IMG/VR virus record: IMGVR_UViG_3300020122_000156
Span: 1 to 27,270 of that record
Reading direction: 5' to 3' (one strand)
From: a virus
DNA length: 27,270 nucleotides
A model generated the notes under the pieces. That model was not told where the DNA came from. It was given only the letters and a program-made list of their open reading frames with translations, and searched no databases. Positions 14,699-27,270 of this stretch are shown piece after piece (position 1 is the first letter of the stretch; each line of letters opens with the position of its first letter). Position numbers and translations under genes: made by a program.

Positions 14699-15670
14699 TT
14701 AGGCGTTGGCAACCCCGGTGATCCGCGCATGCTGCCGGAGCGAGTCAAACTTGAGGTTCCAGCCCACGGTAATGCGGCTGACCACAATTTCTTGCACGCT
14801 CGGCATGACAAACGGTCGGACCCGGAAGTTGTTGGTGGTGAGGAACACCGGGTTAAAGTATTTACTGGTGAGGATTTCGAACTCGCCCGCCGGCACGAAC
14901 TGATCGTGCAGCATGACGGCGCTGTTGTACATCAGGTGGTTCTTGAATCCCGCCCGCGTGGTCTCCTCATCGAAGTACCGCTGATTGGGCGTCAAGAGGT
15001 TGATGTAGCTATTGAACCCGGCCTGGGTCGTAATGATCGTATCCGGCTCTTCGTTCCCGAACGTCGCTTGCCCGTAGGCGGTCTGCAAGTTCGAGAGGCC
15101 CAGATTGCCGGTAAACGAGGTCGGCCCGGCCAAGCCGTTGCTCAACCAGAACGACGAACTCAGCGTGATCCCCGCATAGGTGCCGCTCGACGCCAGCGCC
15201 GACACGAGCGAATCGGTATCGATGCTCGTATTTTGTGGGCTGGTGCCGTAGATGCTGCGCGAGAGCTTTTGCAGCAAGCTCATCATGGCGATTTCTTCCT
15301 TCGCCTTGACCAGCGACAAGACCGCTTCCGGTCCCGCGTTCATGTCCAGATCGGTCGTGGGAATCACGATCGATTCATAATAGAAGCGCCATTGCAATTC
15401 AGCCGGCTGGGCCGAATCCGCAATGGAGGTATCCAGAATCTGCGAGCCCCAATAGGCCCCGCCCGTCACTTCTTCCGAGGAAATGACGGTCCAGACGATG
15501 GATCCGCCGCCCGAGACCTTGCGGCCCTGGCTGGTGGCCCGCCAAAACGTCGGAGACGGCTTACCCACGGCATCGACCAAATCTGGTGCGATGTACTTCT
15601 GAGTAATTCCGTTCATTGTGTTAATAAGACTCACAGGAGGCTGTGAGAGCTGTGTGCCTACGCCTGCCAT
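14699..15670 (-). CDS. Major capsid protein (HK97-fold)
   Basis: 323 residues, with AAAAGGAG upstream of the ATG. Features typical of HK97-type capsid proteins: a flexible N-arm; an E-loop-like region near residues 50-75; a long helix near 110-135 (GPEAVLSLVKAKEEIAMMS); the A-domain part with PDTIITTQAGFNSYINLL; and a C-terminal beta region with FEILTSKYFNPVFLT and VRPFVMP. It follows the scaffold gene, as expected for procapsid assembly. It contains no obvious crosslinking or protease site. A 7-bp hairpin lies just inside the 5' end of the gene. Confidence 0.82.
   Translation of the reverse strand: MAGVGTQLSQPPVSLINTMNGITQKYIAPDLVDAVGKPSPTFWRATSQGRKVSGGGSIVWTVISSEEVTGGAYWGSQILDTSIADSAQPAELQWRFYYESIVIPTTDLDMNAGPEAVLSLVKAKEEIAMMSLLQKLSRSIYGTSPQNTSIDTDSLVSALASSGTYAGITLSSSFWLSNGLAGPTSFTGNLGLSNLQTAYGQATFGNEEPDTIITTQAGFNSYINLLTPNQRYFDEETTRAGFKNHLMYNSAVMLHDQFVPAGEFEILTSKYFNPVFLTTNNFRVRPFVMPSVQEIVVSRITVGWNLKFDSLRQHARITGVANA
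15630..15647. other. Short hairpin 23 bases inside the capsid gene start
   Basis: CTCACAG (15630-15636), a 4-base loop and CTGTGAG (15641-15647). On the mRNA (minus strand) the loop region carries CCTCCT, complementary to the AGGAG ribosome site 12 bases before the ATG. The mRNA could therefore switch between a hairpin and a ribosome-site-blocking pairing. Speculative. Confidence 0.45.
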
Positions 15671-17826: not shown

Positions 17827-18248
17827 CGCCCCTCCCGCCCATACCGGACAATGGGTTCCGAATCGAGCGGGGCCAGCCCCGCCTTCTCACACACCCGGCG
17901 CATCGCCCCATGCGACGCCGCACAACCCACCGTTATCCGCACGGTCTGGTGCTCGTCCATGATCGCCCGCAAGGCCCGCGTGCCGGTTCCCTGATTCGGC
18001 GTGCCGATGAGCAGGCCAATATCAAATCCGTACCACGTCGGCATCAGCGTGGCCACGCCCACGAACTGCCCGTCATCGTGAATCCGTAGATACCGCGCCC
18101 CCATCGGCAACGAAGCCACATACTGGTACTGCCTCTCCAGTGTCGGCACTGCGCCCGCATGACGGGACTGCACGAGCCGACCGGGGGCCGTCAGCCATGT
18201 GAGGATCGTCGGATAGTCGTCGGGATGCACGGGGGCCAGCGTCATCAT
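17823..18248 (-). CDS. GNAT-family N-acetyltransferase
   Basis: 141 residues, ATGA-coupled to the portal gene. The GNAT fold is visible: an N-terminal helix region (PVHPDDYPTILTWL), strands around QFVGVATLMPTWYGFDIGLLIG, the acetyl-CoA loop PNQGTGTRAL (84-93), then strand VRITVGCAA and the motif HGAMRRVCEKAGLAPLDS (113-130), the common NxxAxxxYEKxGF position with His-Gly replacing Asn. Such enzymes transfer an acetyl group from acetyl-CoA to an amine on a small molecule, peptide or protein. The substrate is unknown. A GNAT between portal and small late genes is unusual; a virion or host-target modification is possible. Confidence 0.72.
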   Translation of the reverse strand: MMTLAPVHPDDYPTILTWLTAPGRLVQSRHAGAVPTLERQYQYVASLPMGARYLRIHDDGQFVGVATLMPTWYGFDIGLLIGTPNQGTGTRALRAIMDEHQTVRITVGCAASHGAMRRVCEKAGLAPLDSEPIVRYGREGR

Positions 18249-20014
18249 TTCTTTTTGTCATTTTTCTTCGCCATCGCCTTCATGGCGAGTTCCTGGTCGG
18301 CCTTCTGACTCTCCGCTTGCGCGTCCGGCATCTCCAGCGTCTTGAGCGTATACGCCGTGCTCACCTTGCCCATCTTGGAAAGCGCGAGCGTCAAGCGCTG
18401 CAAGAGCGTTTTCGAACGCAACGTAAACGAGGCCGGATCGACATGCACGCCATAGTCATCGGGCTTATTGATCGGCTCCCAGGGTGCCGGCTTCCACTCG
18501 GCCGCGCTCGCAAACGGAATCATGCGCGGCATCGTGTAGTACTGCGCCATGCGGTAGAACATCTGCGTGACGAGCTTTTGCACGGCCACATGCAGCAGGC
18601 GCGCGCGCAACCGCGTCAAGCCTTGCGCTTCGCTGATTTCGGTTTCGACCAGCTCGCCGCTCACATTCCCGCCACGCGGGGCGCGGTCGCGGCCCAGCAC
18701 CTTGCCCATCAGTTCCCGGAAGAAGCTGCCCATCTTCACCATGCTCTCCGGCATCGGGGGCGGATAGTAAATCTTGAATTCCCCCACGCCCTTCGCAAAC
18801 ACCTGGCCGGGAATGTTGGCCCAGCTGCCCGGCTTGATGCCCGTGGTCACGTCCGCGACGACAATCCCGTTGTTCAAGCGGATGCCGTTCTCCAAGACCA
18901 GCGAATCCATTTTGTTCCCCGCTTGCGACAGCGCTTTCACCGCCCGCACCGCCGGGGTGCGCACCCAGAACTCATGCGTGGTCGGCTCACTCCAGACCGG
19001 CACAATCGGGAAGGGCCCGAGGAACGGATACTTATCGTCGTAGAGCACCACGCCGTTCGCCGCCACAATCAAGCGCCCGTTCGGATACTTGAGCTTGGTC
19101 TTAATCGTCATCACCGGCATCAGCTCGCCGGTCTCTTTGTTCGGCTCCATCACCGGATTCCCCTGCTCGTCTTTCTTCTCTTCGGGGATCTCTTCGGTGG
19201 CATCGTCGTAGATGTACAGCGTGAGCTTCTCCACCCGCGCCTTCAGATAGCCCGTAATCCGCGTGGCCTGCCCCGGCGCGTTCAGCGGCCCTTTGTAGCT
19301 CCCGCTCCCCCAGCGCTTCCACACCTGCCACCAGGGGGCCGCGTTCGGCGTGGCGGTACTCACCGCATCCTCGGGCTTCACACGGAAACCCACTTCGGGG
19401 AAGTCCTCACGGATCTGCCGGAGATCGACGACTTCTTTCACCAGCACATAGGCCCAGTTGTCATCGCTCGTGGCATCAGGATCGGGGAACACACAGGCAG
19501 GATCGATGGCGCGAATGTCCAATTCCTTTTGGTGCGTCTGGCGGTTTTCCTTGATGCCGCAATAGAGAAAGCCCGCCGGATGCAGCAAGCTGTCCCGTGC
19601 CGCAATCGCCACTTGCAGATCGGCAAAGGTGCGCGTCCATTCGGCTTGCATCGCCGTTTCGACGTTCTGGTCCCGCTCGCCCTTGGTGGGGTCTTTATGG
19701 ACGAAGATCTTCATCGGATTGTCGGTCAAGTCCGACACTTCCGAGAGGATCATCGTTTTCAATTCATTGACGACGATGGGCAGCTTGAACGAGGGCAGAT
19801 CCGTATCCCACTGCTCGCCCCAGTAGATCGCGCGGTCGTCGTCCCAATCGTCGTCGTTCGCCTGATCGGTCTTGCCCTTCGCGGCATCGTCAGCGAGTTT
19901 CGAGAGCCATTGCCAGGTCTCACGCTCCCCCGCCGGGGCGGTCAAGTCGAACTCCTCCTCCTTTGGGAGGGCGGCGGCGGCGCCACCGAGGAGTGGTTGT
20001 GGGTCTTCCGCCAT
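18245..20014 (-). CDS. Portal protein (P22-like)
   Basis: 589 residues. The start region has a disordered acidic stretch and then a helix (ETWQWLSKLADDAAKG), followed by WDDDRAIYWGEQW and the IVVNELKTMILSEVSD segment common to P22-type portals. The central part contains PACVFPDPDATSDDNWAYVLVK, the C-terminal half has long wing or stem helices (SGELVETEISEAQGLTRL) and the extreme C-terminus is lysine-rich. It forms the dodecameric ring for DNA entry and exit at one head vertex. It lies downstream of the large terminase with small zinc-binding genes in between. Confidence 0.82.
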   Translation of the reverse strand: MAEDPQPLLGGAAAALPKEEEFDLTAPAGERETWQWLSKLADDAAKGKTDQANDDDWDDDRAIYWGEQWDTDLPSFKLPIVVNELKTMILSEVSDLTDNPMKIFVHKDPTKGERDQNVETAMQAEWTRTFADLQVAIAARDSLLHPAGFLYCGIKENRQTHQKELDIRAIDPACVFPDPDATSDDNWAYVLVKEVVDLRQIREDFPEVGFRVKPEDAVSTATPNAAPWWQVWKRWGSGSYKGPLNAPGQATRITGYLKARVEKLTLYIYDDATEEIPEEKKDEQGNPVMEPNKETGELMPVMTIKTKLKYPNGRLIVAANGVVLYDDKYPFLGPFPIVPVWSEPTTHEFWVRTPAVRAVKALSQAGNKMDSLVLENGIRLNNGIVVADVTTGIKPGSWANIPGQVFAKGVGEFKIYYPPPMPESMVKMGSFFRELMGKVLGRDRAPRGGNVSGELVETEISEAQGLTRLRARLLHVAVQKLVTQMFYRMAQYYTMPRMIPFASAAEWKPAPWEPINKPDDYGVHVDPASFTLRSKTLLQRLTLALSKMGKVSTAYTLKTLEMPDAQAESQKADQELAMKAMAKKNDKKK

Positions 20015-20421
20015 CAGAATTGTCCGGGATCGGGCGTCAAGTCATCGTGATACTCATCGGCATCCTGTGGCGCTTCCGCGGCGAGCTTCGCCTCAATCGC
20101 CGGGGCCAAATCAGGCCGTTGCTCCGCCAAGTCCAGCTCATCCCGCTGCACGCGCCGTGATTCCTTGGCCCAGCAGCCCGGCGAACAGACCCGCCGCACG
20201 TCGTAGTGCCAGCGCCCCACGCCCTCCGCGTTCATGCGGTACTCCTGCTTCGTGCGTTCGAAATGCGGGCGCAGGATCTTGAACTTGCCGGGATCGGTCG
20301 CGGCAAACTTGTACGGCCCGCCCTGGCATTGACTGCATCGCCAGTGGCAGATCCGGTGCGGCTGACAGCTCACACAGTCGGGAATGCAACAGGCGCTTTT
20401 CATCGTGATGGTTGACATCAT
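20014..20421 (-). CDS. Cys-rich zinc-binding protein
   Basis: 135 residues, ATGA-coupled to the gene upstream and overlapping the portal start by one base. The N-terminal third carries CCIPDCVSCQ, then CHWRCSQCQGG and a later CSPGC, at least eight Cys in a His-containing context, indicating one or two zinc sites. The middle (KFKILRPHFERTKQEYRMN) is basic, the C-terminus acidic. Several nearby genes have the same Cys-pair style. The function is unknown; coupling to the portal suggests assembly or host-contact work. Confidence 0.55.
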   Translation of the reverse strand: MMSTITMKSACCIPDCVSCQPHRICHWRCSQCQGGPYKFAATDPGKFKILRPHFERTKQEYRMNAEGVGRWHYDVRRVCSPGCWAKESRRVQRDELDLAEQRPDLAPAIEAKLAAEAPQDADEYHDDLTPDPGQF

Positions 20422-20648
20422 TTCCCCCATTCGTGCACGGGTTGGTTGCCGTTCTTCGGCACCGTGATGAGTTGCTGCTTCCGCTGATGCTCGGCCTTCC
20501 GGCCCATCAGGCGCTCTTGCAGCTCGTCCTGGGCCAGGTGCAGCATGAAGCAGGCAATCATCGGATCGTTCGGCAGATCAAAGATGATCCGCCCATCTTC
20601 AAACAAGCGAATCCGGGCATCGCCCCGGAGCGCGTCAGATTGCTGCAT
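20418..20648 (-). CDS. Hypothetical small protein
   Basis: 76 residues. An N-terminal beta hairpin (ARIRLFEDGRIIFDLPND) is followed by a long helix (MIACFMLHLAQDELQERLMGRKAEHQRKQQ) and a short end. Similar small proteins are frequent in phage late blocks but have no known role. Placed two bases after a zinc-ribbon gene and ATGA-coupled to the next. Confidence 0.55.
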   Translation of the reverse strand: MQQSDALRGDARIRLFEDGRIIFDLPNDPMIACFMLHLAQDELQERLMGRKAEHQRKQQLITVPKNGNQPVHEWGK

Positions 20649-20650
20649 CG

Positions 20651-20866
20651 TTAAAACCCCTTTCCCATGTACTTCAGCGCGGGTTGATCCTCGCGCCGTC
20701 CCGCGCCGATCGTGCCGCCTGCGCGACCCTTATCCACGGTCCGCCAGTTCTCACAGACCGGGCAGCGAAACACCCAATGCCGGTGCGTTTCGTCCTGCAC
20801 CGTCATGGCCAGGCCCTTGCGGGGGCAGTCCTCACAATGGCAGACGATCGTCAGGGACATCTTCAT
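20651..20866 (-). CDS. Zinc-ribbon mini-protein
   Basis: 71 residues with CHCEDC (C9, C11, C14) and CPVC (about 35-38), the ligands of a zinc ribbon, separated by a short strand region (MTVQDETHRHWVFR). The C-terminus is basic. A start at the second Met (20860) is also possible. It overlaps the end of the preceding small gene by 35 bases. The function is unknown. Confidence 0.55.
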   Translation of the reverse strand: MKMSLTIVCHCEDCPRKGLAMTVQDETHRHWVFRCPVCENWRTVDKGRAGGTIGAGRREDQPALKYMGKGF

Positions 20867-21029
20867 AATCCAGTTTGCGCTTCAAACAGTAGCCCTCCAT
20901 CGGCGCATAGCAGATGTAGAACGAGGGCGATTGCTCCAACACGATCCACGTCGTCTCATCGCCGCACCGCATGCCGCCAGGCCGGGGCCGATGGCGAATC
21001 CAACGGTAGCCGTTCAGCGTGCCGCTCAT
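20832..21029 (-). CDS. Hypothetical small protein
   Basis: 65 residues, ATGA-coupled to the large terminase stop. Beta-rich with a WIRHRPRPGGMRCGDETTWIV segment and three Cys residues, which could be half a zinc site. The C-terminus overlaps the following zinc-ribbon gene. No family is recognised. Confidence 0.5.
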   Translation of the reverse strand: MSGTLNGYRWIRHRPRPGGMRCGDETTWIVLEQSPSFYICYAPMEGYCLKRKLDYEDVPDDRLPL

Positions 21030-22741
21030 AAGGCCAGCCAGTTCGCGGGCTCCCGCGTCTGCGACTTATTGAACCGCGTTTCCCAATCCGCGTCCCATTG
21101 GGCGATCGGATCATTGACCGTCTGCATCCCGGCCCCCCGCAACCGCTCGCGCGTCAGCCGCTTCTTCTCGGGCTCCAGCTCGACGTGATAATGCTCCTCA
21201 CCCCACACCGCACAGGCGATGCCAAAGGCAAAGAGCAAGTCGTCCTTGCCCGCCAAGGATTCATACCGCCCGCTATCGTTCTCGCCAAAGCTCTGGAGCT
21301 GCGTGAGCAAGCTCTCCGAATGAATCGTACAGAGGCGCTCCTTCACGACTTCGACCATGCGGTTAATCATGATGCTGCGCGTTTTCGTGTTCGTTTCCCA
21401 GCCCCACATGCGCCCCGGATCGGGCTTGATGTGGTCTTTGTGTTTGTAGCGGTAGAGGTGGAAATAGTTGTGGTCTTTGAGGAGATAGGTCAGCAGTTCG
21501 CGCCCGCCACCGCCGCCACTGGCGGTGATTTCGGGCGCCAGAAATGCAGTATTGTAGCGTCGTCCAAGGACCGCGAGATGCCGCGCCATGACGTAGGTGG
21601 GGGACGCACAGTCGTATTCAGCCACCTGCTCAAGTGTGTCCAGGTCAAAGACTTCGGCGGCACTACGGCTATGCGATTGGTCATCAAATCCCATACTCGT
21701 ATCCGCGCCGATGAGGTACTTACGACCAGGAACCGGGGGCTGCCAAATTTCGAGATAGCCATCCGGATCGGCGGTAAAGCGTCCATCGAGGTCGAGTCGG
21801 AACTTCTTCCCATCGCGAATCTCCTTCCGCATCGGAATCAGGTCGGCGCTGCGGAACAGCGGCAATCCGGATTGAATGAACGCCTCCTCCGGCGTGCTCG
21901 GATACTCCTGGTGAAACTGCTCGACATCGCCTCGGCAGTAGCCCTCAATCATGAAGCGCCGCCACGCGAGCTGTCCGGCCCGCAGGCTGAACTCCTCCCG
22001 TAAGGCCACTTCTTCATAGTCCAGATCCGCCAGCACGGCGCCCTCGGCATCGGCGCCGCCCGCATAGCGATAGTCCGGCAGTTCGTACTCCGCGAGCTTG
22101 AACCAGGGCAGAAAGACGGGGGTGAGGTGGTTCTTGCCCCGCTGCGCCCGGTTCCATTCGTCGTAGAACAGCTCGCCCTCGTGCGTCTTGCCGTTCGCCG
22201 TGCTCTCGACGAACAGCCAGCTCTCACCCTTCATCGGCACGGTTTGCAAGGCCGCAATCCAGGCCTCCGGGTGCGGCCACAAGGCCACTTCGGAGAGATG
22301 CAAGGCCGTCATGGTCATGGAGCGGGTGGCGTGCGGAGACCCCGCCGTGGCAATGGAATACTGGCTGGTGCCCAACTGCATTTCTGTCCCGGCTTTGCTC
22401 ACAAACGGCGTTAAGGGCGAGAGGTCCATCATGCGCTCCGCCATCTTCCAAATGTGCGTGGTGCTCTCACTCGCATGCGCAATGACTTTGGCATTGACGT
22501 AGGGCTCCCACACAAACCGCGCGGTGAGCAGGCCTTGAATGAGCGTTGACATGCCCATCTGCCGGGCCTTGAGGATGATGAGCCTGATCGAGCGCCGTGC
22601 ATCCAAGGCCGGCGCAATCACGTCCCGCCAGACGATCTCCTGCGCTTCATTGAACTGAAAGCGCACGGCCGTGGGCACGTCTTTGGGACGAATCCACAGC
22701 GACTCAATGAACCGTCGGTAGAAGGCGGACCGGCTCGCCAT
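21026..22741 (-). CDS. Large terminase subunit
   Basis: 571 residues. The N-terminal ATPase domain has the Walker A-like LKARQMGMST (57-66), the Walker B strand LHLSE (147-151) and a coupling-motif region with VESTANGKT. The C-terminal RNase H-like nuclease has GADTSMG with its first Asp near 350 and an acidic KDDLLFAFG helix near 510. The enzyme packages DNA through the portal and cuts concatemers. It lies downstream of a candidate small terminase and upstream of the portal, as usual. The start has no clear ribosome site and lies two bases after the preceding stop, suggesting coupled translation. Confidence 0.9.
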   Translation of the reverse strand: MASRSAFYRRFIESLWIRPKDVPTAVRFQFNEAQEIVWRDVIAPALDARRSIRLIILKARQMGMSTLIQGLLTARFVWEPYVNAKVIAHASESTTHIWKMAERMMDLSPLTPFVSKAGTEMQLGTSQYSIATAGSPHATRSMTMTALHLSEVALWPHPEAWIAALQTVPMKGESWLFVESTANGKTHEGELFYDEWNRAQRGKNHLTPVFLPWFKLAEYELPDYRYAGGADAEGAVLADLDYEEVALREEFSLRAGQLAWRRFMIEGYCRGDVEQFHQEYPSTPEEAFIQSGLPLFRSADLIPMRKEIRDGKKFRLDLDGRFTADPDGYLEIWQPPVPGRKYLIGADTSMGFDDQSHSRSAAEVFDLDTLEQVAEYDCASPTYVMARHLAVLGRRYNTAFLAPEITASGGGGGRELLTYLLKDHNYFHLYRYKHKDHIKPDPGRMWGWETNTKTRSIMINRMVEVVKERLCTIHSESLLTQLQSFGENDSGRYESLAGKDDLLFAFGIACAVWGEEHYHVELEPEKKRLTRERLRGAGMQTVNDPIAQWDADWETRFNKSQTREPANWLAL

Positions 22742-23822: not shown

Positions 23823-24029
23823 CTAATCACGATATTCGGGTTTCAACTTAAAGGGAAACGTGGTCATGTCGTAGAGTGGCTTCTGCCACGGCTTCCAGCG
23901 CCGTTGCACCAGCTTGCGGCCCTCCATGCGGCGGCCCCACGCGGAGTCACCTTTCCGCTTCGCGCCAGAGAGCTGGCCGAGGTAACGCATGCGCTGTACC
24001 AGGAGTGAGTCGTTCGCTAACGTAGCCAT
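23823..24029 (-). CDS. Basic hypothetical protein, first gene of the leftward block
   Basis: 68 residues, very basic (KRKGDSAWGRRMEGRKLVQRRW in the middle), without clear domains. Its ATG has no ribosome site, and the predicted minus-strand promoter puts transcription start about two bases upstream, so it may be translated from a leaderless or nearly leaderless mRNA. A small DNA- or RNA-binding role is plausible from charge. Confidence 0.5.
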   Translation of the reverse strand: MATLANDSLLVQRMRYLGQLSGAKRKGDSAWGRRMEGRKLVQRRWKPWQKPLYDMTTFPFKLKPEYRD

Positions 24030-24037
24030 CAGGGTTG

Positions 24038-24066
24038 CGTGTACACCGCTCGCCGCGTGCTGTCAA
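24038..24066 (-). promoter_or_regulatory. Leftward sigma70-type promoter
   Basis: On the minus strand TTGACA (24066-24061), a 17-base spacer and TACACG (24043-24038). The predicted start is about 24031, just before the ATG at 24029. The -35 is perfect, the -10 fair. It faces away from the rightward promoter; the two -35 boxes are separated by a 10-base pyrimidine tract (24067-24076). Confidence 0.6.
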
Positions 24067-24076
24067 TCTTTTTTTC

Positions 24077-24105
24077 TTGACACATGCCTAGAGGTCCGGT
24101 ATACA
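24077..24105 (+). promoter_or_regulatory. Rightward early sigma70-type promoter
   Basis: TTGACA (24077-24082), a 17-base spacer and TATACA (24100-24105): a perfect -35 and a -10 with five of six consensus bases. A tract of seven T lies just upstream. The ATG at 24112 lies seven bases past the -10, where +1 is expected, implying a leaderless mRNA for the first early gene. Confidence 0.75.
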
Positions 24106-24111
24106 GGTCCC

Positions 24112-24294
24112 ATGGAAACACCCTTCTTACTTCCGACCTATCAGTGCTGCCGATGTTCCCATCAGTGGATTCCACGGAAAACACACTATCCGAAACGCTG
24201 CCCCTCGTGTACCTCAGCCTATTGGGATCGTCCGACACAAAAAGAATTTGAGGAGTCGCGCACGCATGCAATATCTCAGCGTCAAGAACCTTGA
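24112..24294 (+). CDS. Zinc-ribbon protein, first early gene
   Basis: 60 residues. The ATG is chosen from the promoter: an upstream in-frame start would lie inside it. The ribbon is Cys12/Cys15 and Cys30/Cys33 (CRC-type, then CPSC), with HQWIPR between and SAYWDRP after: the pattern of a widespread family of small 'YxCxRCGHxWxPR...CPxCxSxYWD' proteins in bacteria and archaea, thought to be regulatory or nucleic-acid binding. It overlaps the replication gene by 29 bases. It may be an early regulator. Confidence 0.65.
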   Translation: METPFLLPTYQCCRCSHQWIPRKTHYPKRCPSCTSAYWDRPTQKEFEESRTHAISQRQEP

Positions 24295-24901
24295 GGTCTA
24301 TCAACATTACAAAGATCGTGATCCGAAATGGATTAAACTCTACTACTCCATTTTAGACGATGAAGTATTTATGGTCCTCGATGAAACCATGCGGTGTCGC
24401 TACATCACCTGTCTCATCATTGCGAGCCGCACCCACAACAAGATTCCCTATGACAAATCCTATCTCAAGAAGATTATGCGTCTTGATAAAGCCCCGAATT
24501 TACAACCACTTATCGATCACGGATTTCTCGTCTATCATCCGTCTAGCATTCCTCTAGACGACGACAAGCATTTGTCGCAGGGTCCGAATCACTCTCTCCT
24601 CTCCTCTCCTCTCCTATCTCCTCTTTCCGTTCCGAAGATGTCTCCGGATCTTAAGAGCAATAGTCATGCTGAACGAAATGGGCGAGGGCCGCGACCGTTT
24701 CCGGACGATCTTGTCTTTAATGACACGATCAAAAGCTCCTGGGCCGATCATGGGATTGATCCGGGCATTGAGTTTGCGAAGTTTCGGGATTATCACCGCG
24801 CCCGCGCCACCCGCTTTACCGATTGGATGGCCGCGTGGCGGAATTGGGCGAGGAAAGCCATTGAGCTGAAGGAGGCCTCCCATGTGCGACCAGTGCGGTA
24901 A
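24266..24901 (+). CDS. Replication initiator or replisome organiser-like protein
   Basis: 211 residues from an ATG with GAGGAG ten bases upstream; a TTG at 24248 is less likely. Residues about 1-95 look like the winged-helix start of phage replication proteins (WIKLYYSILDD, RCRYITCLIIASRTHNKIP, KPxLxPLIDHGFL style). A Ser/Leu/Pro linker (about 110-130) is encoded by a pyrimidine tract. The C-terminus has FPDDLVFNDTIKSSW and YHRARATRFTDWMAAWRNWARKA, a DnaT-like single-stranded DNA-binding pattern. It would load the host helicase at an origin. The gene is AT-richer than the late block. Recognition is by layout, not alignment. Confidence 0.65.
   Translation: MQYLSVKNLEVYQHYKDRDPKWIKLYYSILDDEVFMVLDETMRCRYITCLIIASRTHNKIPYDKSYLKKIMRLDKAPNLQPLIDHGFLVYHPSSIPLDDDKHLSQGPNHSLLSSPLLSPLSVPKMSPDLKSNSHAERNGRGPRPFPDDLVFNDTIKSSWADHGIDPGIEFAKFRDYHRARATRFTDWMAAWRNWARKAIELKEASHVRPVR
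24541..24629. other. Origin-like structured tract inside the initiator gene
   Basis: Two adjacent hairpins, GTCTAG/CTAGAC (24541-24559, 7-base loop) and CGACAA/TTGTCG (24562-24577, 4-base loop), are followed by a 38-base pyrimidine tract with repeated CTCCT (24592-24629). In lambda-type phages the origin lies inside the initiator gene, so this is a candidate origin. No clear iterons are present, so the assignment is uncertain. Confidence 0.35.
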
Positions 24902-26434: not shown

Positions 26435-26463
26435 TTGACACACGCGCATACATCTAATACACT
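26435..26463 (+). promoter_or_regulatory. Second rightward sigma70-type promoter
   Basis: TTGACA (26435-26440), 17 bases and TACACT (26458-26463), with a T-rich tract (26425-26436) just upstream. The ATG at 26470 is seven bases past the -10, as in the first early promoter. It begins the last operon. The -10 is weaker than the first one. Confidence 0.65.
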
Positions 26464-26499
26464 GCATACATGAACCGCACGAACCATCAGGAGGCGATT

Positions 26500-26721
26500 A
26501 TGATCATCACGAAAGTCACGCACACCGCCGACTGTACGCGGGTCTTCAAACGCTACGATCTCTCCTGCCCCCGCTGCCAAGAATTAGCGCACGGCGCCCC
26601 CGCGCGGAAGGGTTGGTTCACCCCGCGTGCCCTTGAGCCCCGGTGGGTGCCCTGCCGCTGTTTCGATCCGAATCCGGGCGGCTATTGCACGGTCTGCGGG
26701 AACGGACGTGACGTTTCATGA
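26500..26721 (+). CDS. Zinc-binding early protein with a possible second leaderless start
   Basis: 73 residues from an ATG with AGGAGG six bases upstream. An in-frame ATG at 26470, right at the predicted +1, would add ten residues from a leaderless mRNA. Three Cys clusters (CPRC, CRC and CTVC near the C-terminus) indicate one or two zinc sites. It ends ATGA-coupled to a ribbon-helix-helix gene. Its role is unknown, but zinc and coupling to a regulator suggest gene control. Confidence 0.6.
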   Translation: MIITKVTHTADCTRVFKRYDLSCPRCQELAHGAPARKGWFTPRALEPRWVPCRCFDPNPGGYCTVCGNGRDVS

Positions 26722-26861: not shown

Positions 26862-27270
26862 TTCCCTTCACGCAGTTCACCCATCTCTTGGCGACGCGCT
26901 TTGCTGGACAACTCCTGGAGGGCGACCATACACCCAACGGGCAGGCCTGCCTCTTGGAAGCCGCGCATGCGGTCCTGGAGGAGCCCTGGTCGGATGCGCC
27001 GACGCACTGGCCGGATCTCCGGCCGCTCAATGATGCGTGCTGGTCGTCTGCCGCCGTGCGGACACAGCATCTCGTGCCGGTGCTAGAAGCCTACTGGGAG
27101 TGGGGGGAATGGTCCTCGTCACGTCGTCAGAGGGTGATCGCGCAGGTGTGCCTCCTCACGGTCACTCGACTCATTGCCGAGTTACCGGGTCTGGAGGAGG
27201 CGGGGCGCCAGCCGTGTCGCGCCGCGCGCACGCTCAACGAGGCGGCGGCGGCGGCGCGGGCGGTGCGGGC
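26858..27270 (+). CDS. Early hypothetical protein (3' partial)
   Basis: Open for 137 codons to the right edge from an ATG with AAGGAGG four bases upstream, coupled to the regulator gene. Helical, with GQACLLEAAHAVLEEPWSD, WPDLRPLNDACWSS and a RRQRVIAQVCLLTVTRLIAEL helix. A similar layout (LNDA...W plus R...LVPV) occurs in many small phage and prophage proteins of unknown role. The end is not in the window. Confidence 0.55.
   Translation, partial: MIPFTQFTHLLATRFAGQLLEGDHTPNGQACLLEAAHAVLEEPWSDAPTHWPDLRPLNDACWSSAAVRTQHLVPVLEAYWEWGEWSSSRRQRVIAQVCLLTVTRLIAELPGLEEAGRQPCRAARTLNEAAAAARAVR

Follow-up and report, generated by a model that had tools for sequence, protein, structure and literature searches.

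The window, a 27,270-base IMG/VR virus record that belongs to a tailed phage according to its gene content, carries at the junction between two oppositely directed gene blocks a site that is best explained as two back-to-back sigma-70-type promoters with leaderless or nearly leaderless first cistrons, and we consider this reading probable. The motif, its spacing, the absence of Shine–Dalgarno (SD) sites, and coding support for both open reading frames (ORFs) are directly visible in the window.

The leftward block, starting from 24,029, is structural and contains genes for the terminase large subunit (21026–22741), portal (18245–20014), and major head protein (14699–15670), along with other genes. 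The rightward block, starting from 24,112, contains a small zinc-ribbon ORF, a replication/primosomal-like protein (24269–24901, plus strand; good SD site, GAGGAG), and a DNA methyltransferase. A tRNA search of the window found none. Two neighboring small leftward ORFs (20014–20430, 20651–20866) also have paired CxxC motifs, which suggests that this phage encodes many small proteins of the zinc-ribbon type. At the left contig end, a rightward ORF (2–925), oriented opposite to the structural genes, has weak similarity to O-antigen ligase (Wzy_C), below the curated cut-off; it is possibly a surface-modifying phage gene or, alternatively, flanking host DNA.

The intergenic space between 24029 and 24112 comprises 82 bases, and would accommodate both promoters for the host sigma-70-type RNA polymerase. 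Its center is formed by an inverted pair of −35 boxes, TGTCAA (24061–24066) and TTGACA (24077–24082), around the 10-base pyrimidine/A-tract TCTTTTTTTC (24067–24076). The predicted rightward promoter (24077–24105, plus strand) consists of TTGACA at 24077–24082, a 17-nt spacer, and TATACA at 24100–24105; the leftward one (24038–24066, minus strand), of TTGACA at 24066–24061, a 17-nt spacer, and TACACG at 24043–24038. Compared with the sigma-70 consensus (TTGACA/TATAAT, spacer of 16–18 nt), the −35 box is perfect and the spacer is 17 nt on both sides, while the last T is missing from both −10 hexamers, which match TATAAT in four out of six positions (rightward) and three out of six (leftward). 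The inverted TTGACA pair, the pyrimidine tract, and the 17-base spacers described by the first-pass annotation are thus present, with correct coordinates, and the short distances it reported to the ATG codons were borne out, being six bases past the rightward hexamer and eight past the leftward one. Overall, the divergent promoter pair is very probably real.

On the rightward side, GGTCCC separates the −10 box (end at 24105) from the ATG at 24112, so that the predicted +1 would be the A of this ATG. According to an approximate sigma-70 weight matrix applied over window positions, this promoter has rank 2 in the window (the mean for shuffles is 0.5). The gene starting here (24112–24294, plus strand) encodes 60 amino acids with a zinc-ribbon-like CxxC-x14-CPSC motif, and there is no further ATG, GTG or TTG start in its frame between 24112 and the motif. 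The codon score of this ORF is neutral to negative, and its coding support comes from the zinc ribbon. No database homolog was found among phages and plasmids, the best PDB similarity had an E-value of 0.17, and the NCBIfam search of the flanking ORFs yielded only weak similarity to the HypA zinc ribbon; with the thresholds applied, no repressor and no PHROG or Pfam family matched either flanking ORF. Taken together, the sequence offers strong support for the rightward leaderless reading, and we regard a leaderless rightward message as likely.

On the leftward side, CAACCCTG lies between the −10 box and the ATG at 24029, and the predicted +1 falls at 24031–24029, most plausibly near 24031 (24030 and 24029 are purines); the ATG would then begin at a position between +1 and +3. 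The first gene of this block (23823–24029, minus strand, 68 amino acids) is the sole one of its six frames with a positive codon score, and has no credible homolog among the searched phages and plasmids. An in-frame TGA of this ORF lies inside its own −35 box, and hence the start can hardly be further upstream. This promoter ranks only 12th by the matrix, and on hexamers alone is no better than shuffled sequence. Directly upstream of its −35 box, AAAAAAAGA resembles the proximal half of an UP element, judging by the established UP-element consensus. More generally, the A/T tract flanked by the inverted −35 boxes may serve both promoters as an UP element, and it is possible that TCTTTTTTTC is a shared contact of the alpha-CTD. 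Support for the leftward near-leaderless reading is moderate, and chances seem about even that this message is leaderless or has a leader of 1–2 nt.

The anti-SD pairing energy revealed no SD site before either ATG (24112, 24029), as the first-pass annotation had claimed: the values upstream of the two ATGs, −4.3 and −3.0 kcal/mol, are near the background (quartile −4.0, median −2.4), compared to about −6 to −12.6 kcal/mol for the clear-SD genes of the window. Folding the initial 50 nt of RNA gave nothing remarkable. Many other non-SD genes of the window abut or overlap the stop of the upstream gene and thus can use translational coupling, whereas the two first genes do not. Good SD sites precede the second rightward gene (24269) and many genes of the leftward block, which restricts leaderlessness to, at most, the first cistron on each side. 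We infer promoter activity at the two sites, transcription starts at or next to the ATG codons, and leaderless translation: the first gene on each side would be read from a message with a leader of 0–2 nt, and later genes would rely on SD sites or on overlap with the preceding gene. The leaderless divergent pair proposed earlier is retained as the best-supported reading, strongly for the rightward side and moderately for the leftward one. The accompanying idea, that it frees early expression from competition for ribosome sites, is not supported: the leftward block holds structural rather than early genes, and SD sites serve many of the genes further downstream.

Several other explanations have to be weighed against these data. 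A chance resemblance with no promoter pair at the site might be suspected from the simple sigma-70 consensus scan of the window, which lists neither promoter; the missing last T of the two −10 boxes explains the omission. TTGACA by itself is not rare (eight copies in the window vs. nine expected), but TGTCAA-N10-TTGACA occurs once, and in none of 100 shuffles, and TTGACA-N17-TAYAC is found three times (the divergent pair and a site at 26435) vs. 0.01 expected, a figure that is somewhat flattering, as TAYAC was defined after the sites were known. The remaining five TTGACA have no TAYAC at this distance, and at all three sites with it (three out of three) an ATG follows 7–9 nt past TAYAC. We consider chance resemblance extremely improbable; the threefold regularity also makes the leftward TACACG more credible than its matrix score. 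Alternatively, TGTCAA-N10-TTGACA, a perfect 6+6 dyad within a divergent intergenic region, could chiefly serve a dimeric regulator as its operator, its likeness to −35 boxes being secondary and transcription starting elsewhere. However, the dyad is confined to the −35 hexamers, TAYAC lies exactly 17 nt away on both sides, the copy at 26435 is non-palindromic and yet retains the same TTGACA-N17-TAYAC, no recognizable repressor gene lies beside the site, and no operator set surrounds it apart from this single dyad; the operator explanation is accordingly improbable.

The other two alternatives accept the rightward promoter and concern the use of the ATG codons. The ATG at 24112 may be incidental or weakly used, with the message serving mainly gene 2 (24269) and its first ~157 nt being a leader. 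This agrees with the codon score of the 60-residue ORF, which is not positive, and with the third promoter of the window (26435–26463, plus strand; TTGACA-N17-TACACT, rank 1 by the matrix), where an ATG with the same +1 geometry (26470) is followed 30 nt further, in frame, by the ATG (26500) of a gene with an AGGAGG site (26500–26721, plus strand; −10.3 kcal/mol). Thus, an ATG placed at +1 cannot by itself be taken as proof; the one at 26470 may go unused or yield an extended form of the protein, and a two-start gene at 26435–26530 is possible. At 24112, on the other hand, the zinc ribbon is in frame, as in 0 out of 5000 shuffles, with no alternative start in the frame past the promoter, and we find an incidental ATG rather unlikely. 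It could also be that only the rightward promoter exists and the leftward ORF is translated by coupling inside a longer leftward unit. A minus-strand ORF (24307–24029), open for 92 codons, ends in TGATG, overlapping the ATG at 24029 by one base, and the leftward −10 box is poor; but the codon score of this ORF is negative, it lies antisense to the zinc-ribbon ORF and spans both −35 boxes, and chance is an unlikely source of the leftward TTGACA-N17-TAYAC. This makes coupling very improbable.

The reading with two promoters and leaderless first cistrons can be compared with other viruses. We scanned IMG/VR for TTGACA-N17-TATAC with an ATG 2–32 nt further on, using the same motif with a 13-nt spacer as a control, and considered an ATG as ORF-starting if the ORF it opened spanned 40 codons or more. 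The comparison set is a sample of mostly AT-rich sequences (mean GC of 0.39 vs. 61% in the window). Among the matches listed, ORF-starting ATGs were observed 5–8 nt past the hexamer for 22 out of 134 distinct promoters vs. four out of 118 wrong-spacer controls (Fisher p = 0.0007), with a peak at 6 nt (13 cases), and depletion of the positions just beyond the peak. Further away, ATGs form another, broad group, which fits SD-led leaders. At another divergent phage promoter pair, a leaderless-looking gene resembles that of ribosomal protein S21 (phrog_21469), and the gene on the opposite side has an SD-like leader.

Close relatives of the window are represented by one near-identical contig, with seven differences in about 13.95 kb, none of them near the site. 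The GGCGGC-type low-complexity stretch at the right end of the window (27200–27270), which runs for more than 100 bases further in this contig, may have broken the assembly. No moderately diverged relative was found in scans of viral contigs with the terminase, portal, zinc-ribbon, and replication proteins, and a prophage/host search with the terminase and capsid found nothing. Terminases at 30–33% identity were considered for a conservation test and set aside, as their upstream regions are not comparable.

The scan for divergent pairs yielded phages with TGTCAA-(A/T tract)-TTGACA before the gene of the terminase small subunit (TerS; phrog_2538, E-value 5e-5). We collected this marine family by protein sequence and obtained 28 distinct upstream regions with a recognizable promoter. 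Among these recognized loci (the pattern was not recognized in 15 others, which limits the fraction to the former), the gap between the −10 box and the ATG is 6–9 nt in 25 out of 28 cases, an SD-like site is seen in none out of 28, and the upstream inverted TGTCAA, in 23 out of 28. The hosts of their cultured relatives are Pelagibacter, Puniceispirillum, and members of the Roseobacter group. Pelagibacter phage HTVC103P has TTGTCA-N17-TATAAT-N6-ATG at the annotated terS start; in HTVC033P, CRP-2, and HMO-2011, the arrangement differs. The other side of the terS promoters often opens no ORF, and a non-coding transcript from it is possible. The terS regions of uncultured marine phages and HTVC103P share with the window the inverted TGTCAA/TTGACA pair, the A/T tract, the 17-nt spacer, the ATG at 6–9 nt, and the lack of an SD site. 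Their −10 box is TATA(A/C)T, and, unlike the window, they are AT-rich and involve a different, non-homologous gene, for which leaderlessness is likewise deduced. These upstream regions show the design to be present and conserved in phages other than that of the window, and, going by our scans, the arrangement is common among other viruses.

We suggest, tentatively and at somewhat less than even chances, that the window is one case of a widespread, conserved phage design, whereby leaderless first cistrons at junctions of divergent blocks are driven by back-to-back promoters whose −35 boxes form an inverted pair flanking an A/T tract, and which would have stayed fixed upstream of terS in marine phages. 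Among phages, leaderless messages are known chiefly from a handful of repressor genes; numerous SD-less first cistrons of phages may simply be leaderless. This has implications for gene calling, where starts are often moved to find a ribosome site, and for the competition of phages for ribosomes, and the ATG-distance test with the wrong-spacer control makes leaderless starts measurable across viral collections.

Phage transcripts have been remarked to be often leaderless (PMC5312081), and the cI mRNA of phage lambda is named as a leaderless phage message (PMC4488713, PMC9031893). Lambda cI is a repressor gene with an activated promoter, unlike the genes at the site studied here. To our knowledge, lambda cro, the divergent partner of cI, is not leaderless. 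A lambdoid cI/cro switch region was considered as a candidate identity for the site and rejected, given no repressor match in the flanking ORFs and no operator set beyond the single dyad. RACE identified a single leaderless mRNA, starting at the AUG, for each of the divergent genes cI and cro of phage PY54, and an UP-like AT-rich sequence lies beside the cro promoter (PMC4488713). These genes resemble those of the window in being divergently transcribed and directly preceded by their promoters; however, the PY54 region is a cI/cro lysogeny switch with operators, and no inverted pairing of its −35 boxes is described, whereas the window has no recognizable repressor and its leftward block is structural. 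Since leaderless messages of PY54 cI and cro have been proven by RACE, the promoter pair of the window is probably a new example of an already known leaderless arrangement.
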